Positions 12,120 through 59,456 of a stretch of 64,000 nt of DNA are shown piece by piece. Location: positions 1 to 64,000 of the IMG/VR virus record IMGVR_UViG_3300010354_000053. One strand, given 5' to 3'. A program made the position numbers and the translations under genes. Every line of letters starts with the position of its first letter. Position 1 is the first letter of the stretch. Origin of the DNA: a virus. The notes under the pieces were generated by a model. It was not told the origin of the DNA and made no database searches. It saw nothing but the letters and a program-made list of their open reading frames with translations.

Positions 12120-12842
12120 TTATTTATCGACTAGCGGTATTCCGCATTTATTATATTTTGCATTAAATCCAGAATAAATCCAAGCTACACCCATCGTTCT
12201 AGGCATTTCTTTCGAGCAGGCAAAATCAATTGCTGTATGCCAACAGTTTGATGGAAACATTACTGCCGTATTATATGAATAATAAAAATCTTTATAAATC
12301 TTCCATTGAGAAGAGTCTTTTTGTTTTGGAATGTCTACTGGCGTTTTGGATGTAGCAAAACGCTGGCCGTTTAAGTCTTCACAAAAACACAGCCTTGCAG
12401 ATTGTTCTTGAGGGGTAAAATCAAATATAAATGACCACATTGGATGATTTACATATATGGGTCTGCCATGTTCATCAAAATCGTATCGGCTAAATCTGTC
12501 AATATGGGCGTGTAATTCTGAATGTTTTGGCTGCGTTAATCTTCTAAAATTAATAAAAGATGAGTCAATATACCAAATGTAATCTTGCAAAATACCAGAT
12601 GCTGTACTGGCAATATATTCTAATGTTTTATTTGCATAAAACGGATGAGAAATAATATTATCCCCCACCCAATATCCTGACGATTGATCATATTCTGCTT
12701 CCAAAACCATTTTACGATAAACTTCTGGATTTGGTAAAAAATCTTTAATGATAAAAAATGGAAAATCAACAGATGTATCTTTAGTAACAATCATAAAGAT
12801 CTTTCTTATTAAATTGTTAATTAAAGATACTAGTGTTTTCAT
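12120..12842 (-). CDS. 2-oxoglutarate/Fe(II)-dependent oxygenase-like protein
   Basis: A 240-aa non-fibre protein inside the fibre array. It shows the residues expected of a 2OG-Fe(II) oxygenase: an HxD pair in ELHAHIDRF (H113, D115), a distal His in NCWHTAIDF (H202) and an Arg 13 residues later (PRTMGVAW, R215) suited to bind 2-oxoglutarate. Spacing and length fit the family. The first ATG overlaps the stop of the collar gene (ATGA) without a good ribosome site; a start at residue 17 (MIVTKD, 12794) is also possible. Similar enzymes occur in phage structural regions. The substrate is unknown: a virion residue or a host surface molecule could be hydroxylated. Confidence 0.55.
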   Translation of the reverse strand: MKTLVSLINNLIRKIFMIVTKDTSVDFPFFIIKDFLPNPEVYRKMVLEAEYDQSSGYWVGDNIISHPFYANKTLEYIASTASGILQDYIWYIDSSFINFRRLTQPKHSELHAHIDRFSRYDFDEHGRPIYVNHPMWSFIFDFTPQEQSARLCFCEDLNGQRFATSKTPVDIPKQKDSSQWKIYKDFYYSYNTAVMFPSNCWHTAIDFACSKEMPRTMGVAWIYSGFNAKYNKCGIPLVDK

Positions 12843-37073: not shown

Positions 37074-40007
37074 ATGTCACATTTTAAGTTGTTTGATTTT
37101 ATTGATCAGCATCCAGAAGAAAAACGTCCGTGGAGTAACCGTTGGAAAAATAAAAAAATTTGCGCAAACCTTCATTGCCACTCTCATTTTTCTCTAGATG
37201 GGGGTTCGACTGTCCAAACTATGGTTGAACGGGCAGTAGAACTAGAATACACGCATTTTACACTTTCCGAACATGGAAACGTCAACAGCGCAGTAGCGTT
37301 ATACCGCGAGGCTGAAAAAATAAACAAAAAAGGGAATAAAATAAAGCTATTTCATTCGGTGGAAGCTTATATCCGACATCCTAAAGATGAAAAATCTACC
37401 CATATCACAATAGGATTTAAAACTAGCGCAGCGTTCCAAAAATACTGCGAGCTAACGCACATACTGTATGACGAGAAGCACATGGAGGTTAAATGGGGTG
37501 ATGTTAAACCCGTTATGACTACCGAGCATCTTGAAGAACTAGCTCCCCTTGGGATTGTCATAGGAACGGGCTGCATCGGTTCGTTCTTTAACTACCCCAT
37601 TTATAAACACGGTAATGTTAAGGAGTCACGTGAGCGCCTTGAGTGGGTTATGAGTTTAGTTGGAAGAGATAACATTTACGACGAGTGGATTGTAGATGAC
37701 CTTAGTAAATATTACGCGCCCGCTAAAGTTGAAGAAGGCAAAATTATCAAAGAAGCAGCGCTTGAGCTTAACGAGTGCTCACCTCACCTCCTGCAGTATG
37801 GGCAGAATACCCCAAACATTGGCAAAGCTGTAAACAATGTGCGCCGTGATCATGTTACAGGCCCATTAAATATTAAGCCGATTGTTTCGCTGGATTCTCA
37901 TTACGCTCGCAAGAAAGATAAAGTAATTCAAGACTCTAAGAATTACGGTTCGGATTGGATTATGTCTAACTTCCAACATATGCGCGGGGCTGAAGAATAT
38001 GCATACGAGGCTAAAAAATACGGTGGGCTGGAAGATAAATTTATTGAAGAACTGCTAGATAATACCGAAGATTATGCAGAACAGTTTAATGGTTACGAAT
38101 TTGGACCTTCCAAAGAATGGATTATGCCAAATTACGAAGATTCAAATTTAAAGTGGATTGTTAATAAGATTAAATCAGAAAAACGTATTAATCTAGATGA
38201 AAAAGATTACGCAGACCGTCTTAATTATGAAATTAAAGTCCTTGGCAACAATGGTGTATTTGATGGCTTGGCATATTTAAGAACAGTTAGTGAGATTTGC
38301 GACGAGGCAGAAAAACGAAATATTCTTGTTAATACCCGTGGTTCGGCTGGTGGTAGTCTTTCTTATTTTGCCGTAGGCGCATCTGTTACAGATCCAATTA
38401 AATATGACTTACAATTTGAGCGGCACATCACACTAGGCCGTATTAAATCTGGTTCCTTGCCGGACTGCGATTTGGATTTCGATGTTAAAGACGAAGCTCT
38501 AGCTATGATTTACGAAATGTATCCAAACAGAGTATTACCTATCTCAGTAAACCAAAACCTTAAACCACGATCTGCTATTAAAGATGCTGAACGATTTATT
38601 CTTGGCGCCGTGCGGCAAGAAACAGAAATCTTGACAAAGTCAATGCCAATTGTTCCACAAGGAAAAGATGAAACTGAATGGCTGTTTGGCTATGAAGACA
38701 TTGAAACTGGTGAGCATATTCAAGGATATTTTGAAACTTCTCAAGAACTGCAAGCATATGCTGCAAAAAATCCAGAAATTTGGATGATGGTTGAACAAAT
38801 GTGCGGAGTTATGCGGCAAAAATCTTCACATCCATGTGGGCTTATTGTTACACCTACCGAAAGTAAATACTGGCTTCCAGTGTGCCGCGTTGGAGGAAAA
38901 AATGGTGCGCTTGTAACTGCATGGTGCCCAAAAGATTTGGAATGGTACAAAGCAGTAAAGTTTGATGTTCTTGGTGTTAAAAAAATGCAAACAATCAAAA
39001 AAACATTTGAACTAATTAAGCAACGCCATGGGATTGATTTAAAATGGGGTGAGTTTGATCACAATGATCAAGTATTTGAAAATATTTACCATACCGGTAA
39101 AACTGATGCGACGTTTCAAACAAATACTTCCGGCATTCGTTCTCTGTGCGTAAGAACTAAGCCAAAAAATATTGTGGATATTTCCAACTTAATTGCTTTG
39201 TATCGTCCATCGACAATTGACTGGCAGATGCATTTGCAGCCATCGGAAGAGCGGCCAAGTGGATTCCATGGCAATGCCATGGAATTTTATGTGCAATGTT
39301 CTGCAGGCAATCAGAGACCTTATTACATTCACCCCTCGCTCGAACCAATTTTTGGTTCTACGTTTGGTGTGCCACTGTTTCAGGAGCAGATTCTAAAACT
39401 AGCTCGAGAAGTTGGTGGTTATTCATTTGAAGAAGCTGAAAACTTACGACGAGGTATTGGTAAAAAAGATAAAAAACTGATTAACGAGATTTTGGACGAT
39501 ATGGAAAAACGTATTATTACAAAAGATTCTTCTTGGGCTGAAAACCAATTGCACGAATTACGCGAGATGGTTATTGCGTCCGCACGTTATGGGTTCAATT
39601 GTGCCCATAGTACATCTTATGGAATTGTTTCTTATGCTACAGCGTGGCTAAAAAATAACTACCCTCTAGAGTTTTGGACTGCAGAACTTAGTGTTGAATA
39701 TGGAGACGAAGACAAATTGAGAGAATATTCTCAACTTATTTCTGACAAACTTTTGCAGCCTTCAGTCCTTCATTCCGATACAACAGATTTTGTCATTGAA
39801 GGGGACAAGATTCGCGTACCTTTGTGTGTTTTAAAAGGAGTTGGGGAAGAAGCCGCAAAAGCCGTCAAAAAACTTATGCATAATAGTTTAGAGGAGATTG
39901 GTTTAACCAAAAAGCCACAAGTGGTCAAAAACTCAAGAGAATCAACTAAACGTGCAAAAGTACTTAGTGACCAAAAATCGGATGATAATTTGTTGTCGCT
40001 CGGGTAA
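37074..40007 (+). CDS. dnaE: DNA polymerase III alpha subunit, C-family, lacking C-terminal region
   Basis: A 977-aa DnaE-type polymerase. The PHP domain at ~30-280 begins LHCHSHFS (H34, H36) and keeps SEHGNVNSA, HSVEAY, GTGCIGS and DSHYAR. The palm has RGSAGGSLSYFAVG (422-435), the catalytic pair D466/D468 in PDCDLDFD and the third Asp D631 in KFDVLGVKKM. Fingers and thumb regions include LFQEQILKLAREVGGYSFEEAENLRRGIGKKD (cf. DnaE) and FNCAHSTSYGIVSYATAWLK. It stops just after the first helix-hairpin-helix signature (VLKGVGEEAAKAV), so the usual second part of that region and the OB fold are missing. The missing part appears to be encoded at 51402-52220 on the other strand. Confidence 0.9.
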   Translation: MSHFKLFDFIDQHPEEKRPWSNRWKNKKICANLHCHSHFSLDGGSTVQTMVERAVELEYTHFTLSEHGNVNSAVALYREAEKINKKGNKIKLFHSVEAYIRHPKDEKSTHITIGFKTSAAFQKYCELTHILYDEKHMEVKWGDVKPVMTTEHLEELAPLGIVIGTGCIGSFFNYPIYKHGNVKESRERLEWVMSLVGRDNIYDEWIVDDLSKYYAPAKVEEGKIIKEAALELNECSPHLLQYGQNTPNIGKAVNNVRRDHVTGPLNIKPIVSLDSHYARKKDKVIQDSKNYGSDWIMSNFQHMRGAEEYAYEAKKYGGLEDKFIEELLDNTEDYAEQFNGYEFGPSKEWIMPNYEDSNLKWIVNKIKSEKRINLDEKDYADRLNYEIKVLGNNGVFDGLAYLRTVSEICDEAEKRNILVNTRGSAGGSLSYFAVGASVTDPIKYDLQFERHITLGRIKSGSLPDCDLDFDVKDEALAMIYEMYPNRVLPISVNQNLKPRSAIKDAERFILGAVRQETEILTKSMPIVPQGKDETEWLFGYEDIETGEHIQGYFETSQELQAYAAKNPEIWMMVEQMCGVMRQKSSHPCGLIVTPTESKYWLPVCRVGGKNGALVTAWCPKDLEWYKAVKFDVLGVKKMQTIKKTFELIKQRHGIDLKWGEFDHNDQVFENIYHTGKTDATFQTNTSGIRSLCVRTKPKNIVDISNLIALYRPSTIDWQMHLQPSEERPSGFHGNAMEFYVQCSAGNQRPYYIHPSLEPIFGSTFGVPLFQEQILKLAREVGGYSFEEAENLRRGIGKKDKKLINEILDDMEKRIITKDSSWAENQLHELREMVIASARYGFNCAHSTSYGIVSYATAWLKNNYPLEFWTAELSVEYGDEDKLREYSQLISDKLLQPSVLHSDTTDFVIEGDKIRVPLCVLKGVGEEAAKAVKKLMHNSLEEIGLTKKPQVVKNSRESTKRAKVLSDQKSDDNLLSLG

Positions 40008-42027: not shown

Positions 42028-42078
42028 TTGTCTTATATTAGCAAATCGCTAGTATAAATTATACACTTGGAGTCGCCT
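42028..42078 (+). promoter_or_regulatory. Possible promoter for amidoligase/phosphatase pair
   Basis: The gap between divergent genes holds TATAAATT (42053-42060), within the near-palindrome TATAAATTATA, with a TTGTCT about 19 bases upstream and GGAG before the start codon. It resembles either a sigma70-type -10 box or a T4-late-like TATAAATA box. Weak evidence. Confidence 0.35.
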
Positions 42079-43002
42079 ATGGCAATTGATTTAAGCAAAA
42101 TGACGTTTGGCGCTGAACTAGAACTTGGCGATGTTGATACAAAAATTATTCTGCCGCTAGGTAATAGATGGTGTGATAAAGATGGATCTATTTGTAATTC
42201 CAATGGAACTGCAAACGATCCGAAAAAAGTTTTTAATCGGTATGGTGGTGAGATTCAAATGAAGCCTGAAAACTCTCCGGAAGAGTTGCTTCGAGCCACT
42301 AAAGAAATCTACGACCTTCTGCCTAAAAAACACTTTAACTTTACCACTAATTTGCATGTTCATATTCGTATTCCCGGACTTAAGGATGACTTAGAGGCCC
42401 TAAAGAAAATTGCTGCGTATCTTCGTAAATATGACGAAGAAATTTATGAACTTATAGACCCAAATCCATTCCCAGAACGACAACTTAAATTTTCCAATCC
42501 TGACTTTTACAACGGCGCAGTCTCGAGATGGCGTCGTCGTAATAAGTCACATAGGTATCGGGTGACAGAAAAAGTTCATAAATTAATGATGAACGCAAAA
42601 TCACCACGCGAGTTCTACGAGGCTCACGCCCCTAAAAATCGTTTTGGACAACCAATGTGGCATGTTGTGGTCAGAGCCGGTGTGAATCTCAAACAAGTAT
42701 TTGAAGATACTGAAACTATTGAGTTTCGGCATTTTACAATGTCACCAGATCTAAATAAGATGTTGTCGGCATATAAGTGGCCTAGGCTTCTTATGGAAGC
42801 AATTTTTGTCACGGGGCACACACCGAAGCAGATTTTAGAAAACAATCCAGACTTGGTATTCCAAAATTTTCATCCGTATGATCACGAACTAGATAAAATC
42901 TTTAGGCAAACCAATGTTTACCATAACAAACGTTCCGAAGTGCGGGAAAACTATAAACGTTTAATTGAGCAGGGCCTAGTTGACGAACAGACTCTTTATT
43001 GA
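42079..43002 (+). CDS. Amidoligase-family enzyme
   Basis: A 307-aa protein; the ATG at 42079 is preceded by GGAG, so I prefer it to an in-frame TTG at 42067. It shows amidoligase-type motifs: TFGAELEL near the N-terminus, then YGGEIQMKPENSP, NLHVHIRIPG and ETIEFRHF. These are the positions of the metal- and substrate-binding acidic and His residues of the ATP-grasp-related amidoligase superfamily (glutamine synthetase/COOH-NH2 ligase fold). Members join a carboxylate to an amine, often on proteins or peptides. It is followed after 7 bases by a tyrosine phosphatase gene. The substrate is unknown; host protein modification or a DNA-linked amino acid are options. Confidence 0.65.
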   Translation: MAIDLSKMTFGAELELGDVDTKIILPLGNRWCDKDGSICNSNGTANDPKKVFNRYGGEIQMKPENSPEELLRATKEIYDLLPKKHFNFTTNLHVHIRIPGLKDDLEALKKIAAYLRKYDEEIYELIDPNPFPERQLKFSNPDFYNGAVSRWRRRNKSHRYRVTEKVHKLMMNAKSPREFYEAHAPKNRFGQPMWHVVVRAGVNLKQVFEDTETIEFRHFTMSPDLNKMLSAYKWPRLLMEAIFVTGHTPKQILENNPDLVFQNFHPYDHELDKIFRQTNVYHNKRSEVRENYKRLIEQGLVDEQTLY

Positions 43003-43009
43003 GGATTGC

Positions 43010-43462
43010 ATGAAAGTTTTATTTATTTGTACGGGTAACAAGTTTCGTAGTCCAACTGCGGAACATATTATGAAATGCCTAGCCCCGCATTTAGAAGTTA
43101 AATCGGCTGGAACAGCGGAAGGCGCTCATAAAAACTATTTAATGGCCAAAAAAATGCGTCGTTGTTTAATTGAATTAGGTTATCCTGAGCCCGCAATACG
43201 TTCTCAGCATCTGACGGCGGAATTAATGGAGTGGGCAGATATTGTTTTATATATGGCCCCTACACATTTCAACTATATGTACAAAAATCATGTCCAATTT
43301 ATACATAAATGCAGGCCGCTCTACACCGTCCTGCCAGACCTTGATTTAAAACGAATTGAAGACCCTGCTTTTATTAAAAAGCATGAAGATGTTATGGAAG
43401 TAACTAAAATTATTGAAGATTCGATTAAAAAAATACTAAACGATGAAGCAAAACTAATTTAA
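43010..43462 (+). CDS. Low-molecular-weight protein tyrosine phosphatase
   Basis: A 150-aa protein with the P-loop at its very start: VLFICTGNKFRSPTAE gives C7 and R13 of the CX5R motif. IEDPAF (D118-P119) is at the place of the general acid Asp-Pro. ATG at 43010 with GAGGATT overlapping the amidoligase stop, so the two are coupled. Family members remove phosphate from tyrosine, or from arginine in some bacterial lines. In a phage it could counter host signalling or act on the product of the neighbouring amidoligase. The catalytic residues look intact. Confidence 0.8.
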   Translation: MKVLFICTGNKFRSPTAEHIMKCLAPHLEVKSAGTAEGAHKNYLMAKKMRRCLIELGYPEPAIRSQHLTAELMEWADIVLYMAPTHFNYMYKNHVQFIHKCRPLYTVLPDLDLKRIEDPAFIKKHEDVMEVTKIIEDSIKKILNDEAKLI

Positions 43463-43653
43463 ACTTCGGAATTACCGATCTTATTCTTTTGACGAGAACC
43501 TGTTGGAATAGATGTACCCGGAAGTTTAGGAGCTTCTGGCATTTTTATTTCTGAAGTTTTAACTGTAGTTTTTTTAGAAGTAGAAGATACAGAACCGTCA
43601 AGAATTTTGTACATTCTGTCTTGTACAGTTTCTGCAGGTGTGGATTTAGTCAT
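43459..43653 (-). CDS. Small Pro/Lys/Thr-rich protein of unknown function
   Basis: A 64-aa frame starting MTKSTPAETVQDRMYKILDG, with the ATG inside the end of the deaminase-like gene (8-base overlap). The second half is disordered (KMPEAPKLPGTSIPTGSR). No ribosome site is evident, so translation would be coupled. It is convergent with the phosphatase gene, with a 4-base overlap. Uncertain as a gene. Confidence 0.4.
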   Translation of the reverse strand: MTKSTPAETVQDRMYKILDGSVSSTSKKTTVKTSEIKMPEAPKLPGTSIPTGSRQKNKIGNSEV

Positions 43654-44182
43654 TTTCTTGCACAGTTCGACTATTTCTAACAGTTTGTTCAAGTTCGGCC
43701 TCTGTTACAATCCAAGGTGGTACGCAAACCATTTTATGCTCTATTTTACCATATTGGATATTAGATAAAAAAGGCTTCATGAGTTCTTGTTCATCTTGAT
43801 GGCGATTTTCTTTAATATAACCAATGTTATCGATATTTTTATCCAGTAATTTAGACATACAAGCCATACAAGGCTGAACACTCACAATAAATTGGTATTT
43901 ATGGATATTGATTGTTTGAATCATCTTTTCCAGAAGATCTGTCTCCGCATGGCGAATTAAGAATTTTTTAGCAGGATTTTTATCAATATTTAACTCGGCA
44001 AGAGCTTTTGAATTTTTTTCAAAAGCAGAAATTATCTTGTTAACGCCATAAGCAATAACAGAATTTGTGGATGTATCTACAGCAATTGCGACTACCTGAA
44101 CTAGAGGATCACTACTTCGTTTTTTAAGAACGTCAAATAGGATCTCGGTACTAACTACAGGGAAGGAGCCGTAGACAAACAT
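43646..44182 (-). CDS. Deoxycytidylate (dCMP) deaminase-like protein
   Basis: A 178-aa zinc deaminase: RHAETDLL gives H78 and the catalytic E80, and VQPCMACMSK gives C105 and C108. This is the HAE...PCxxC signature. Length and layout fit dCMP deaminases, which supply dUMP for thymidine or for dU-derived bases. Phages that make 5-hydroxymethyl-dU need this input. It overlaps the kinase gene by 28 bases and is the last clear enzyme in this operon. Other deaminase specificities (e.g. riboflavin-type) cannot be excluded. Confidence 0.65.
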   Translation of the reverse strand: MFVYGSFPVVSTEILFDVLKKRSSDPLVQVVAIAVDTSTNSVIAYGVNKIISAFEKNSKALAELNIDKNPAKKFLIRHAETDLLEKMIQTINIHKYQFIVSVQPCMACMSKLLDKNIDNIGYIKENRHQDEQELMKPFLSNIQYGKIEHKMVCVPPWIVTEAELEQTVRNSRTVQEND

Positions 44183-44793
44183 TCTTTAATTCCTTGTTGT
44201 AGTTTTTGTACTACTTGTTCGGGTGAATCTTCAAAATCTACTTTTACGAGAGTAACAGGAGCGCGACATAAATCCAAGAAATAACCTACGCACATCTTTG
44301 CCCTATCCATAAACACTTGAACATTATTGAATGTCAAGTCAGGAAGTCTTTCTTCAACAATACCAGCATTTTTTCTTCGCAAAGAAAGACGTTCTCTAAT
44401 CTTTTCTACAGTAAAATCGTAGTGTACAACAACGACTTTAATGTCTTCTTTATGGCGATATTCATTAACCATTTCTACCCAACGAGACGTAGACATAACG
44501 CCATCGATAATAACTGTATCTGACAGCTCGAGAGCATCAAAGAAACCTGTTCTAACTAGCGATGGTGTAGTTATGGAATCTGTGCCAGAATTTTTATTAC
44601 CAACCAAAACACAATTATCATATTGAACAATACTATATTTCTGCTCAATTGTAGCTCCCCTGTTGGGCATACGTTTTTTAATAAATTTACCCATTTTAGA
44701 AATTTCTTTGCCATCTCCTTGGCAAAAAGTATTTCTGGTGGTGGTTTTGCCGGTTGCACCTGCGCCCATTAGAAAAATTGCTACTTTAGTCAT
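44155..44793 (-). CDS. P-loop kinase; candidate 5-hydroxymethyl-dU DNA kinase
   Basis: A 212-aa P-loop kinase: the Walker A motif GAGATGKTT lies at residues 10-18, DTVIIDGVM is a likely Walker B region, and ERLSLRRKNAGIVEERLPD resembles a nucleotide-kinase lid. I chose the ATG at 44791-44793 with GAGGG upstream. By itself it could be a deoxynucleotide or polynucleotide kinase. Its place in an operon with a transferase-like protein, a flavoenzyme and a dCMP-deaminase-like protein favours the DNA kinase of thymidine hypermodification. That specific role is inference. Confidence 0.6.
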   Translation of the reverse strand: MTKVAIFLMGAGATGKTTTRNTFCQGDGKEISKMGKFIKKRMPNRGATIEQKYSIVQYDNCVLVGNKNSGTDSITTPSLVRTGFFDALELSDTVIIDGVMSTSRWVEMVNEYRHKEDIKVVVVHYDFTVEKIRERLSLRRKNAGIVEERLPDLTFNNVQVFMDRAKMCVGYFLDLCRAPVTLVKVDFEDSPEQVVQKLQQGIKECLSTAPSL

Positions 44794-45160
44794 GAAAGCC
44801 CTCAATATACTCTTGATTTGTTTTATGGCATTTAAAACAAATTCTGTTTCCGTTTGGTGAAAAGAAAACATTGTTGCATTTTAAACAATTTCTATTTTTT
44901 GCAATGGCAGAACCGTGTTCTGAAAAAAACTTCTCGTCCGCTTTTCGTAGTTCTTCCATAAGCTGTTTGTGTCGCTCTTTACGTCTATTTGACGTTCGCT
45001 CTTTATTCTTTTTTATTTTTTCTGTTAAATCAATCCAGTTTAAATTATGTTGAATAACATAATTTTGCATGAATGATTCATGATTATCAATGGATGGTAC
45101 TGGAATATTGAGAGTTTTGCAAAACATTTTTAATGTAATTTTAGTTTCATTAACAATCAT
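44786..45160 (-). CDS. Small protein with C-terminal zinc ribbon
   Basis: A 124-aa protein. Residues ~45-75 are a highly charged helix (KIKKNKERTSNRRKERHKQ), and a four-Cys ribbon follows (NCLKCNNVFFSPNGNRICFKCHK: CxxC-x13-CxxC). Such proteins often bind nucleic acid or RNA polymerase. It overlaps the kinase gene by 8 bases. The family is not recognised; a regulatory or DNA-tethering role within the modification operon is possible. Confidence 0.6.
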   Translation of the reverse strand: MIVNETKITLKMFCKTLNIPVPSIDNHESFMQNYVIQHNLNWIDLTEKIKKNKERTSNRRKERHKQLMEELRKADEKFFSEHGSAIAKNRNCLKCNNVFFSPNGNRICFKCHKTNQEYIEGFHD

Positions 45161-45170
45161 TACTCTGCCC

Positions 45171-45500
45171 TTATTCTAATTCAGCACCCATGTCTACGAT
45201 ACCTTCTTTCTGCAACAACGAAAGGGCTAACACTCGTTTAGAATCTGCAAAATTTCTTGTTTCATTGAAGGCACTGCGAAAAGTTTGCAGAACTTCTTGA
45301 GCAGCTTTAAATTCCGAATTAGCTTCCATTTCTTTCTTTGCCTTCAAAACATGCGCATTCTGTTCTGCAATGATCTGTTTTAGTTTATCGACGTTATAAG
45401 TTTTTAGCATTTGCAATTCATCGTAAGAATAATTCTTTACAAACGCTTTTTCAATATCACTCAGATGGCTGTACTTATTTGACTTACTCTTCTTTCTCAT
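45171..45500 (-). CDS. Small helical protein of unknown function
   Basis: A 109-aa protein (MRKKSKSNKYSHLSDIEKAFVKNYSYDELQML...) whose start overlaps the preceding gene (ATGA). It is predicted to be mostly helical, with a coiled-coil-like centre (LKQIIAEQNAHVLKAKKEMEA, split by charge). There is no catalytic motif. It lies between the transferase-like gene and the zinc-ribbon gene, so it may be an accessory subunit. Confidence 0.55.
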   Translation of the reverse strand: MRKKSKSNKYSHLSDIEKAFVKNYSYDELQMLKTYNVDKLKQIIAEQNAHVLKAKKEMEANSEFKAAQEVLQTFRSAFNETRNFADSKRVLALSLLQKEGIVDMGAELE

Positions 45501-46360
45501 TTAACATCCTCCACAAAAAGTAATTGTTTCGTTTTAATGTATGCAGTTTTTTCTTTTACTGAAAAATGGTGTTGTAAAAACTTATGATCAAATTCACATT
45601 CATCTATTAAATTCCAAAATACGTTATCTGAATACAATTCTGGTTTTTTAAGAACTAAAAATTCATTAATGTCATGTCCAACTACATAACTCCCCTTGTG
45701 CAGTATTTTAGGCACTTTACACAAACAGCTTTCTACTTGACCAATCGGCGCGTTCCAAATTTTTGATAAATTCCAACCCAAAGCTTCCCATTCTGGGATT
45801 ATGTCTTTAGTAAATTTTTGATTAATACCATATAGGTAACGAAGTCCAAATACTGGTCCAGTATTTTTGTTAGGATCAGAGCTTTCGATTCCTAACCCAT
45901 TAATACGAAAGCTTTTATATCCAAGCGTTTGATCCATGAGTTCACAAGTTTTATAGCAGGCCCAATCACCAAAATATGGAATAGTCTTGAATAACTCTCT
46001 TCCGCTGTTAAAATCTAACTGCTCTGTTTTAAGCGTTGATTCAACTGTTAACCATCTATCAAAAGCTTTTTCAAAATTTTCAGTTCGTCGCACTTGTGGT
46101 GTTCGACCACGTTCCATTCCAAACTTACTGATTTTTTCAAACATCTGAATGGGTGTTTTACCTTCAGCAATTCCCCGCATGAATAAAACCATGCTTTCGA
46201 TAGAATAGTAATATACGTACATGAAAATTGCGGTTTCGGGGTCAAATTTTTCGTGATTAATAATTGATTTTAGAAAAGGATAAACAGGGTCAACATCTTG
46301 TGTGCGAATTAAAGCTAAGCTAGCCTTCTCGAAATCAGAAAAGTTAAATAGATGTTGCAT
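45497..46360 (-). CDS. Amino-acid:DNA transferase-like (aGPT-pyrophosphorylase type) protein
   Basis: A 287-aa protein starting MQHLFNFSDFEKA; the ATG lies within the end of the flavoenzyme gene. It looks like the helical, DNA-glycosylase-related proteins called alpha-glutamyl/putrescinyl thymine pyrophosphorylases: TQDVDPVYPFLKSIIN near the start, AIFMYVYYYSIES, and later IPYFGDWACYKTCELMDQTLG followed by GLRYLYG. In phages such as SP10, phiW-14, ViI and M6 this family replaces the diphosphate or phosphate on 5-hydroxymethyl-dU with an amino acid or amine. The call rests on remembered family patterns plus operon context, so a profile search is essential. Confidence 0.5.
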   Translation of the reverse strand: MQHLFNFSDFEKASLALIRTQDVDPVYPFLKSIINHEKFDPETAIFMYVYYYSIESMVLFMRGIAEGKTPIQMFEKISKFGMERGRTPQVRRTENFEKAFDRWLTVESTLKTEQLDFNSGRELFKTIPYFGDWACYKTCELMDQTLGYKSFRINGLGIESSDPNKNTGPVFGLRYLYGINQKFTKDIIPEWEALGWNLSKIWNAPIGQVESCLCKVPKILHKGSYVVGHDINEFLVLKKPELYSDNVFWNLIDECEFDHKFLQHHFSVKEKTAYIKTKQLLFVEDVK

Positions 46361-47249
46361 ATAAATACTCTTGAACGCCGTCAGCAAGTTCTTTAATGTA
46401 TGTTGGAGCATGGCGTAAGCCGTTTGCAGATTTTGGAGTTACATACATACAATTACCTTCTTGAATAAACGCATGTAAATAGTCTTCCATATAAGCTGGC
46501 CTCCAGCCTGTTTTTGGCTCTCCCGTTATTTCAATACTTACCTGGCCATTGGTTACTTTAGAAATATGCTCAATAATTTTTTGAATTTTATCTTTAATTT
46601 CTAAATCTTTTTGTTCTTTTTGATAAATAAAATGAGTACCAAGATAATAGGCATCGGTAGTGGGTTTTGGATATAGATACGCATTAATAAAACGACCTTC
46701 TTTTGCATTTAAACAAAATCTTGGATAACGATCAAATACTTCTCCGCTTGGCTTGCACTCTACCGACCATCCCCAACGATAATCGGTAGGTTTATATTTA
46801 TGAAAACCATTAGCGTGAATAATAAGGCGATTTGTTGGAGTTTTATTTATGCGAGAAGAAAAGAAAAAATCTTGGGTAAACTGCACAAACGCTTGTACAT
46901 TAACATGCATTGATTGTTTGTTTAAAACTTTAATATTACCTATAGTTTGCACGTACCTGAGTTCTTTAGAATTATTATGATGCGGAATGCTTTTTTGGGT
47001 ATATCCGTAAGGGACAGCTTCTGAAAAAAGAATAATTGGTCTGCGGTCTGTTTGGCTGAACGATTGTAGCCAAAGGTTATAATTAATTGCATCTAGCTCT
47101 TCACCTGATGGGTAAATACACCCAGTACTTGCCTTCCATGCACCGGGTGAATCGTCGTCTTCCCACGAAAACATAATTTTTCTACTAGTAAGCTCCCAAG
47201 CAAGAAGTGAACCAATCAATCCAAAGCCTTTAATATGTACTGTAGACAT
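46344..47249 (-). CDS. FAD-dependent oxidoreductase/lyase of the DAO (glycine-oxidase-like) family
   Basis: A 301-aa flavoprotein. The Rossmann motif IKGFGLIGSLLAWEL (G8, G10, G13) is at the N-terminus, with an acidic residue (E30 in FSWEDDD) at the end of the second strand. The C-terminal GWRPAYMEDYLHAFI and KSANGLRHAPTYIKELADG match the FAD- and substrate-end motifs of D-amino-acid-oxidase-like enzymes. In thymidine hypermodification, flavin-dependent lyases trim a glycine attached to 5-methyl-dU. Adjacent genes encode the proposed transferase, kinase and deaminase, so that role is favoured here. Confidence 0.65.
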   Translation of the reverse strand: MSTVHIKGFGLIGSLLAWELTSRKIMFSWEDDDSPGAWKASTGCIYPSGEELDAINYNLWLQSFSQTDRRPIILFSEAVPYGYTQKSIPHHNNSKELRYVQTIGNIKVLNKQSMHVNVQAFVQFTQDFFFSSRINKTPTNRLIIHANGFHKYKPTDYRWGWSVECKPSGEVFDRYPRFCLNAKEGRFINAYLYPKPTTDAYYLGTHFIYQKEQKDLEIKDKIQKIIEHISKVTNGQVSIEITGEPKTGWRPAYMEDYLHAFIQEGNCMYVTPKSANGLRHAPTYIKELADGVQEYLYATSI

Positions 47250-57193: not shown

Positions 57194-57861
57194 TGATAAT
57201 GATCACGGACGATATTTATAATAAAAGCATTTATCCGCAGTGCGATTTTAGCATCATTGAATTGCCCCTTGAGTCCAAAGACGCTAAAAAAATGTACCAG
57301 CAGCTGTATAAAACTCAAAAAAATAACCATATTTCCCTTCAATACAGCAGACTTCCAAAAAAACTGCGCCTCAAAGCTATGAGCAATGTTTATTTGGGCG
57401 ATGAAATTGGTTTTAAATTTTATGATTATATAACAATTGTTTCGCAGCAGCCGTGTAGGCAGCCTCCTAATCATTTATCCCCACTTGGAGAAGTCGGCAT
57501 CTTATTTACTAAGAACGAAGAGCCGAATACTAAAACAACCAACTGGTTTAATCCCGAAATTGGCGATTGCACAAACGTTTGGGATGTTAGTTTTCAGCCA
57601 AAAGAGGGAAGCGGGCAGACTGTATCAAAAAAATTTGCGTGGGAGATAGGTTATCTTTTAGCAAATTTAGCGAGTCCGCTCATTTGTAGAAAATTTTTAA
57701 TACTGGGTCTGCCTGAGTTGTCAATGGCAAGGTTTGCATTACATTCAAACTTGCAAATGTATGCAATAACTTCAGATGAGTTTACGGCTAATAAAATTAT
57801 CAAAGATTATGATAAGGCGTGTAAAAGCGAGGTACAGGATAAATCATGGCAAAAGAAATAA
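57163..57861 (+). CDS. DNA methyltransferase-like fold, probably inactive or atypical
   Basis: A 232-aa protein, overlapping the primase-like gene by 31 bases and the chaperonin by 16. The central part (NHLSPLGEVGILFTKNEEP, then TNVWDVSFQPKEGSGQTVSKKFAWEIGYLLANLASP) follows the order of N6/N4-type DNA methylases, and KFLILGLPELSMARFALHSN lies where the cofactor loop would be. The usual DPPY and DPFxGSGT motifs are not visible. It could be a degenerate methylase that binds DNA, or an unrelated protein. Low confidence. Confidence 0.3.
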   Translation: MQITSADGRIVIMITDDIYNKSIYPQCDFSIIELPLESKDAKKMYQQLYKTQKNNHISLQYSRLPKKLRLKAMSNVYLGDEIGFKFYDYITIVSQQPCRQPPNHLSPLGEVGILFTKNEEPNTKTTNWFNPEIGDCTNVWDVSFQPKEGSGQTVSKKFAWEIGYLLANLASPLICRKFLILGLPELSMARFALHSNLQMYAITSDEFTANKIIKDYDKACKSEVQDKSWQKK

Positions 57862-59456
57862 AATATGGACACGAGGCAAGAAATAAAGCCGTTCAAGCAT
57901 TGGAAGAAATTTCCTATATTGTTGGCAGTACTCTTGGGCCTGGTGGTAAAACTGTTCTTTTAAGTCGTCGTAATTCTGCCGATGAAATTTCTGTTTCTCA
58001 TACTAAAGACGGGTTTAATGTATTAAACAGTTTGCGTTATACCGATCCGGTATTTGACGCCGTGCATAAACTTTGCCTACAGGCTAGTGCAAACTCGGTT
58101 GTGTCATCCGGAGACGGCACAACTTCAACTATTGTAATGGCTGCAGCTTTTGCTAAGGCTCTGGTCAATAGTGGAAATAATCCACAGGCGGCAGCTCGAA
58201 AGTTTCGCAAAGAAATTCAAAATGCTATAGAGGCTATTAAAAGCGAAGCTGTGGCTAGTGATGAAGCAGTTTATAAAGTGGCGCTTACTAGTGCTAACGG
58301 AGATGAGGAGCTTACTAAGTTTGTAATGGATGCAGTATCTCAAAGCTCAGCTTATGGAACTGTAATTGTAGAAAAGAACCCTATGTCTAAAGATCCTTAT
58401 AGGATTGATAAGGAATACGGTTACCAAGCTGGCACAGGATACAGCTATTATCTGCCATTTGCGCAAAGCATTCGACCAAACTTAGCAAATAATGCCGAGT
58501 TTACTCTTAAAAAATGCCATGTATTGCCATATAACGGCGACCTAATGATGATGTCTCAAGTTAAGCCAATGCTGGAGTCTTTAGCAAGAAATGCAACCGG
58601 TGGATGGAACTTATTGATTATTTGTCATCAGATTGCTGAAGATTTGGCTGCAAATTTGGCATTTTTTAATCGACAAAACCCTAATGCAAAAGTGTTTGTT
58701 GTAAGAACCACGCCCTCGGCAGAGCTGAATGGGCAGGTCCAACAACTTAATGATATTGCCTCGTATACTGGGGCAAAAGTTATGGATGGGGGCAGTTTAA
58801 CTCACTTGGTGATAGAAGATTTTGGCGACTGCCAGTCAGTTCGGATTGGACCACATAAAACTTTCATCTTAGGCAAATCTGAACGTAATTGGATTATTGA
58901 GCGAGCAGAACAAAATGAAGAATCGGCTCGCCTAGCACCAAGCCAAATGGATCGTGACATCATTCATTCCCGTAATGCATCGCTGACTGGTGGTTGTGTC
59001 AAGCTTATTATTGGCGGTTCGTTAATGAGTGATCTACAAGAACGAGCCGACCGTGCTGATGACGCTATTAAAGCTTCGCAAGCTTGTTCACGCTCAGGAG
59101 CTCTGCCGGGCTGCGGTGCATCGTACATGCGAGCGGGGCAGCAAGCTAAGGTTTCTGAATCCGTACAGACAGCGCTTGCGAGCATTCATAATGTGATTAT
59201 GACAAATTTTGGCGAAACGCCTATGAAGCATTTTGATAAAAATCAAACATATTATATTACCGACAATGATATCCAAAAGGTCGAAAACTTTTTAGACCAT
59301 GGAGTTGCTGATAGTTTTGAAACTATTCGGTCAGTTATCACAAACGCCTTTGAACTAGGTTTGTTGGTGACAAATTTAGGTGGATATAGCCTTGAAGCAG
59401 ATTTAGATCAAATGGAGCAGGCGGCAAGGGCTAAAGAAATTTTAAGAGGCGTATAG
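57846..59456 (+). CDS. groEL: GroEL-type chaperonin
   Basis: A 536-aa chaperonin. Equatorial motifs are intact: YGHEARNKAVQALEE, STLGPGGKTVLL, TKDGFNVL (D55) and GDGTTSTIV (D90, matching GroEL D87); near the end are ADRADDAIKASQACSRSGALPGCG and the C-terminal equatorial helices. It has no GGM tail. Length is close to GroEL (548). Large phages carry such proteins to fold capsid or other virion proteins. No groES-like gene is visible beside it, so it may use the host co-chaperonin or work without one. Confidence 0.9.
   Translation: MAKEIKYGHEARNKAVQALEEISYIVGSTLGPGGKTVLLSRRNSADEISVSHTKDGFNVLNSLRYTDPVFDAVHKLCLQASANSVVSSGDGTTSTIVMAAAFAKALVNSGNNPQAAARKFRKEIQNAIEAIKSEAVASDEAVYKVALTSANGDEELTKFVMDAVSQSSAYGTVIVEKNPMSKDPYRIDKEYGYQAGTGYSYYLPFAQSIRPNLANNAEFTLKKCHVLPYNGDLMMMSQVKPMLESLARNATGGWNLLIICHQIAEDLAANLAFFNRQNPNAKVFVVRTTPSAELNGQVQQLNDIASYTGAKVMDGGSLTHLVIEDFGDCQSVRIGPHKTFILGKSERNWIIERAEQNEESARLAPSQMDRDIIHSRNASLTGGCVKLIIGGSLMSDLQERADRADDAIKASQACSRSGALPGCGASYMRAGQQAKVSESVQTALASIHNVIMTNFGETPMKHFDKNQTYYITDNDIQKVENFLDHGVADSFETIRSVITNAFELGLLVTNLGGYSLEADLDQMEQAARAKEILRGV

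Follow-up and report, generated by a model that had tools for sequence, protein, structure and literature searches.

A conserved six-gene operon

The DNA of an uncultured virus analyzed here, positions 1-64,000 of the 104,757-base IMG/VR record IMGVR_UViG_3300010354_000053 (hereafter the window), carries on its minus strand a candidate DNA base hypermodification operon that spans 47249-43646. In order of transcription, the operon encodes a flavin adenine dinucleotide (FAD) enzyme, an ADDT-like amino-acid:DNA transferase, two small proteins of 109 and 124 residues, a P-loop kinase and a protein with a deaminase fold (Table 1). Adjacent reading frames share a few to ∼28 bases or have a gap of ∼10 bases between them, as expected for one coupled transcript. 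The original prediction had named this run a thymidine hypermodification operon, and the flavoprotein, transferase-like protein, kinase and deaminase all lie where it had placed them. It had also put three tiny genes between them; only two are present, between transferase and kinase, while a third small open reading frame (77 residues) follows the deaminase gene. The CxxC pairs of the 124-residue protein suggest a possible zinc ribbon.

No close DNA relatives of the window were found in the phage collection. The comparisons used three related IMG/VR contigs, G001 (79,376 bases), G002 (169,059 bases) and G003 (106,653 bases), in all of which the gene order of the operon is kept. The ratios of nonsynonymous to synonymous substitution rates (dN/dS) of all six genes, measured against G001 and G002, were 0.02-0.17, indicating that selection acts even on the two uncharacterized small proteins. 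Conserved gene order and purifying selection thus show that the operon is real and not a chance arrangement. The window record itself is incomplete, as it aligns along G002 1-99,102 only, while G002 reaches 169 kb; G001 shows that both ends of G002 adjoin.

Table 1. Genes of the operon, in order of transcription (aa, amino acids)
Feature	Position	Strand	Remarks
FAD enzyme, D-amino-acid/glycine-oxidase fold	46344..47249	-	301 aa; actinophage relatives and model fold
ADDT-like amino-acid:DNA transferase	45497..46360	-	287 aa; phrog_6364, profile, model fold; start ATG at 46360
Small protein, operon member	45171..45500	-	109 aa; window clade only; dN/dS 0.02-0.03
Small protein with CxxC pairs, operon member	44786..45160	-	124 aa; window clade only; dN/dS 0.06-0.14
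P-loop kinase, proposed DNA kinase for hydroxymethyl group	44155..44793	-	212 aa; phrog_800, profile comparison
dCMP/cytidine-deaminase-fold protein, HAE and PCxxC	43646..44182	-	178 aa; Pfam dCMP_cyt_deam_1 over cut-off

Family assignments of the transferase, kinase and FAD enzyme

The ADDT-like protein, in which the previously noted VDPVYPFLK and WACYKTCEL patterns are both present, matched phrog_6364 with E=2.9e-9. M6 gp51 and Wooper gp3, both Pfam ADDT proteins, match the same family. Hence the predicted kinship with the aGPT-pyrophosphorylase family was borne out through phrog_6364, but not through Pfam, where the ADDT score fell below the cut-off (E=0.055). A profile of the window clade, built from three members, matched the ADDTs of M6, PaMx11, FP1, Sonora and SH-Ab15599 at 1.8e-6, and a seven-sequence alignment showed that the family-invariant residues D22, D24, Y27, R91, R92, K137, E210, C214 and D230 are kept. 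The AlphaFold2 model of the transferase (predicted local distance difference test score, pLDDT, 87) had as its top match in a viral structure library an ADDT domain protein, with a TM score of 0.67 and E=1.2e-5. The same model gave nothing significant in a PDB fold search, only weak DNA-glycosylase-like matches, and the window sequence alone found nothing among PDB sequences. A profile that included the M6 and actinophage proteins did produce strong PDB matches; these we discounted, as the evidence is not independent. The family shared with the M6 ADDT, the profile match and the fold together support membership in the amino-acid:DNA transferase family.

The kinase matched phrog_800 (E=5.8e-5), a family that, despite its misleading label "terminase small subunit", includes the M6 gp54 and Vi01 gp61 kinases; the match is suggestive of the relationship to M6 and ViI kinases that had been anticipated. 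A profile comparison gave 7e-5. Both matches cover the P-loop half of the protein, and no match to Pfam HMUDK was found. The kinase is 97% and 90% identical to its counterparts in the relatives. A search with a helical HMU-kinase profile had been proposed for the protein at 45497-46360; HMUDK_hel, the helical partner of 5-hydroxymethyl-dU kinase, is encoded elsewhere, at record positions 85182-86105, outside the window and beside the terminase gene (E=1.8e-21, over the Pfam cut-off). Its M6 homolog, gp55, adjoins the M6 kinase.

Translated searches (tblastn) with the FAD protein found Gordonia and Rhodococcus phage proteins encoded beside aGPT-Pplase2 and kinase genes, with E values of 1e-19 to 1e-23. 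Its closest sequence relatives are those of Gordonia phage Wooper and Rhodococcus phage Tonitrus, and the Tonitrus gene group that contains this relative has been described as a thymine hypermodification system (PMC11955845). The model of the FAD enzyme (pLDDT 88) matched D-amino-acid oxidase, glycine oxidase and the N-alpha-glycinylthymidine lyase gp47 of PaMx11 (8z2o/8z79). By sequence, only the N-terminal FAD-binding segment aligned with gp47, with no full-length relationship, which is why the fold search was needed. The enzyme may thus form a branch of its own in the DAO superfamily, and we do not assign it to the gp47 family. The gene for this DAO-fold protein adjoins the ADDT-like gene, and FAD-family proteins also adjoin ADDT in other contigs. 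We propose that it is a lyase that trims a glycyl adduct, a role that had been predicted for it and that the fold favors, although the sequence match to gp47 is confined to the FAD-binding end.

Closely parallel sets occur in several phages. PaMx11 encodes a glycinyltransferase (gp46), an FAD lyase (gp47), a kinase (gp49), HMUDK_hel (gp50) and a thymidylate-synthase homolog (gp51); it shares with the window phage the transferase, the FAD enzyme of glycine-oxidase-like fold, the kinase, the helical partner and a thymidylate-synthase-family enzyme, the last seen in the relatives of the window phage. The window operon differs in having two extra small proteins and a deaminase and in having HMUDK_hel outside it, and no acetyltransferase was found in the operon, the part of the genome in which one was sought, a further difference from PaMx11. 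The TET/JBP operons of the actinophages Wooper, Tonitrus and Mycobacterium phage Phelemich contain the closest relatives of the ADDT-like protein among named phages, and in them, as in the window operon, genes for ADDT, kinase and FAD enzyme are grouped together. In actinophages annotated as thymine-hypermodifying, relatives of the FAD and ADDT proteins neighbor a kinase. However, their order is ADDT-kinase-FAD, and they start with ParB-like and TET/JBP genes, neither of which is present in the window operon or elsewhere in the window record. M6 shares the ADDT family, the kinase family and HMUDK_hel with the window phage, and Vi01 the kinase family; the pyridoxal phosphate (PLP) and radical S-adenosylmethionine (SAM) enzymes of M6 were not found in the window operon.

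These comparisons bear on the view that there is no DNA-modification pathway here, the FAD enzyme, kinase and deaminase serving nucleotide or amino-acid metabolism and the ADDT likeness being incidental. Indeed, the sequence links of the kinase and the FAD enzyme to proven enzymes are only weak, the ADDT score misses the Pfam cut-off, and the clade is known here from genes alone. Yet four components (FAD enzyme, ADDT, kinase and HMUDK_hel) occur together, ADDT-invariant residues are kept in genes under purifying selection, and FAD-family proteins recur beside ADDT elsewhere, so that we consider this view very improbable. The products of the operon very probably couple an amino acid to a base in the phage's DNA and cut it back to a short amine, and the modification is probably a disguise against bacterial defenses. 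With the base left open, we assign the pathway type (kinase, amino-acid transferase and flavin lyase) with high confidence.

The hydroxymethylase and the modified base

The pathway reportedly described by Lee et al. (2018 and 2022) starts with phosphorylation of a hydroxymethylated pyrimidine in DNA; the phosphate is then replaced by an amino acid, and trimming of the adduct follows. The operon has exactly the parts of this known pathway, and the scheme is therefore well supported as a family assignment. From the assignments we infer the following reactions. A hydroxymethylase of the thymidylate-synthase family, which two close relatives encode, would make 5-hydroxymethyl-dCMP, which would enter DNA; the kinase, together with the HMUDK_hel encoded near the terminase, would phosphorylate the hydroxymethyl group in DNA; and the ADDT-like enzyme would swap the phosphate for an amino acid, most likely glycine because the FAD enzyme resembles glycine-acting enzymes. 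The FAD enzyme would then oxidize the glycine C-N bond, leaving a 5-aminomethyl base and glyoxylate. In the known pathway, an FAD enzyme reportedly cuts the glycyl adduct to an aminomethyl base, as the titles of Wen et al. (2024) and of PDB entries indicate.

In this scheme, the hydroxymethylase points to the modified base. A dUMP hydroxymethylase had been expected elsewhere in the genome; none was found in the incomplete window record, which lacks ThyA-type, ThyX and TET/JBP genes. ThyX is likewise lacking from G000-G003, and TET/JBP matches in G000-G003 do not go beyond a generic 2-oxoglutarate (2OG) oxygenase. In its place, the part of the genome missing from the window record holds one thymidylate-synthase homolog in G001 and one in G002, the sole homolog in each. 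Its best PDB match was T4 dCMP hydroxymethylase (2e-18), and an Acinetobacter phage gene that neighbors glucosyltransferases was among its top-scoring phage matches (2e-28). Both proteins carry Asp at the position of Asn177 in Escherichia coli ThyA. Exchange of this Asn for Asp turns a dUMP enzyme into a dCMP enzyme, and contigs with modified cytosine are enriched in Asp at this site (PMC8670742); the text of that paper makes no mention of HMUDK or ADDT. T4-type hydroxymethylcytosine phages and the hydroxymethylcytosine-carbamoylating phages (PMC8670742) have the same Asp177 dCMP-type enzyme as the window relatives, but decorate hydroxymethylcytosine with glycosyl- or carbamoyltransferases, unlike the pathway considered here.

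By contrast, all 30 homologs read from HMUDK_hel-bearing records (30/30), including those of PaMx11, Epa5, Sonora and LysYB1, are of the dUMP-type Asn177 class, and Asn is also found at this position in M6, Vi01, FP1, SH-Ab15599 and SPO1. In a phylogenetic tree, the Asn177 sequences formed one clade (100/99), with the window-clade sequences outside it and near the dCMP types, their exact join being weak (83/42) and their long branches flagged. Thus, cytosine rather than uracil seems to be the source of the precursor in the closest relatives, unlike in nearly all comparable viruses checked. Of the original designation, the pathway type stands (ADDT, kinase, HMUDK_hel and FAD fold), whereas thymidine is doubtful, with neither an Asn177 enzyme nor a family-level TET/JBP found in the incomplete record or the relatives; given the Asp177 signature, it may be the wrong base.

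A second Asp177 case was found in contig G015, whose pathway resembles that of M6 and comprises HMUDK_hel, kinase, ADDT, PLP and radical-SAM enzymes (L045 8074-13877). Its sole thymidylate-synthase homolog is also Asp177 and lies next to a deaminase gene (L097 1465-2499). The unusual enzyme type therefore occurs in two phage lineages that have this pathway, and a switch to cytosine may be linked to the Asp177 hydroxymethylase in at least these two, the window clade and G015. We also considered contigs with T4-like Asp177 enzymes as further carriers of the pathway and rejected them: ADDT was present in 0/39, and a partial HMUDK_hel match in 1/39, with no kinase adjoining.

If thymidine were hypermodified in the ordinary way, 5-hydroxymethyluracil (5-hmU) would come from an unrecognized oxygenase or an unseen dUMP hydroxymethylase, with the relatives' dCMP enzyme serving another purpose. 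The incompleteness of the window record leaves room for this. A TET/JBP match at E<=0.01 was obtained in 37 of 39 ADDT-bearing contigs (25 of these over the cut-off), the exceptions being G001 and G015, and in G002 and G003 a 2OG oxygenase adjoins HMUDK_hel; G002 carries further 2OG oxygenases. However, the weak Tet_JBP matches of G002 and G003 are to this neighbor of HMUDK_hel, which the generic 2OG family matches far better, and we did not accept them as TET/JBP. In G002 it lies at 79,205-79,858 (L101 19205-19858), between the terminase and HMUDK_hel, as a generic 2OG-Fe(II) oxygenase, and it is absent there in the window phage. Moreover, the one thymidylate-synthase homolog of G002, by far the longest relative, is of the dCMP type. 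On this evidence we regard an ordinary thymidine route as improbable. A window protein at 12120-12842, also considered as a 2OG hydroxylase, had no Pfam match and matched the minor coat protein family phrog_1644, and we rejected it as the hydroxylase.

The strongest rival involves the operon deaminase, in which the predicted HAE and PCxxC motifs were both confirmed (Pfam dCMP_cyt_deam_1, E=3.5e-7, over the cut-off). The protein is divergent, with weak PDB sequence matches and no relatives in the phage collection; it may supply dUMP, as originally proposed, or convert hydroxymethyl-dCMP. In the latter case, the dCMP-type enzyme would make hydroxymethyl-dCMP, the deaminase would turn this into hydroxymethyl-dUMP, and 5-hmdU in DNA would become 5-aminomethyl-dU as in PaMx11. 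The location of the deaminase gene inside the operon fits this route, as does the deaminase adjoining the hydroxymethylase gene in G015, and all characterized relatives of the pathway, as far as is known and as a PDB title indicates, act on 5-hmU. Against it, a dCMP deaminase gene is common also with the dUMP-type enzyme (M6, Vi01, PaMx11 and PhiW-14), making its presence nonspecific, and the route is a detour where a dUMP hydroxymethylase would suffice. We judge it unlikely, though the data do not decide between it and modification of hydroxymethylcytosine.

Cytosine is the most likely base because the hydroxymethylase carries the dCMP signature. For the whole scheme, fed by hydroxymethyl-dCMP and acting on 5-hydroxymethylcytosine, we see a nearly even chance; that the chemistry known on 5-hmU is used here on 5-hydroxymethylcytosine, giving for example 5-aminomethylcytosine, is a tentative proposal, somewhat short of even. 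Several points weigh against it. No hydroxymethylase gene appeared in the incomplete record of the window phage itself, so we infer it from relatives, where its link to the operon is copresence in one genome, not adjacency; indeed, in G001 and G002 it sits among tail genes, far from the operon. The window clade has Cys at position 147, where T4-like dCMP hydroxymethylases have Thr. To our knowledge, 5-hmU is the substrate of the known kinases and transferases of this type, and the deaminase could turn hydroxymethyl-dCMP into hydroxymethyl-dUMP.

As far as could be found, the literature contains no report of this pathway on 5-hydroxymethylcytosine, and the amino-acid-derived DNA bases reported to date from this pathway are on thymine. 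If hydroxymethylcytosine is the substrate, cytosine becomes open to a full set of amine-type modifications, with DNA kinases and transferases of changed base preference that would be useful for labeling 5-hydroxymethylcytosine (5hmC), and with a phage disguise that known defenses against hydroxymethylcytosine and 5-hmU may not recognize.

Neighboring genes

Convergent to the operon, at window positions 42067-43462 on the plus strand, are genes for an Amidoligase_2-like protein (E=7e-4, below the cut-off) and then a protein with a low-molecular-weight phosphatase fold; the pair is kept next to the operon in G001 and G002. Such a ligase could append a residue to an amine, although nothing links it to the pathway yet. 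The plus strand of the window also encodes a bacterial-type DNA polymerase III alpha subunit with a PHP domain (37074-40007) and a phage chaperonin of the GroEL/Cpn60 family (57846-59456, E=1.1e-28).

In the part missing from the window record, G002 has a Mom-family protein at 115,262-115,906 (L103 15262-15906; E=3e-32); Mom is a known adenine-modification family. Beyond the window, the record encodes an alliinase/aminotransferase-like PLP enzyme (101,534-102,589, L009 1534-2589; E=5.6e-30), which is also present in G002 and has no known link to the operon, as well as a pyrimidine-dimer-glycosylase-like protein (69,791-70,318, L007 5791-6318; 1.8e-12), an IMP dehydrogenase/GMP reductase (73,747-74,805, L007 9747-10805; 4e-71) and a ClpP-like protease (90,107-90,679, L008 8107-8679; 1.8e-11).

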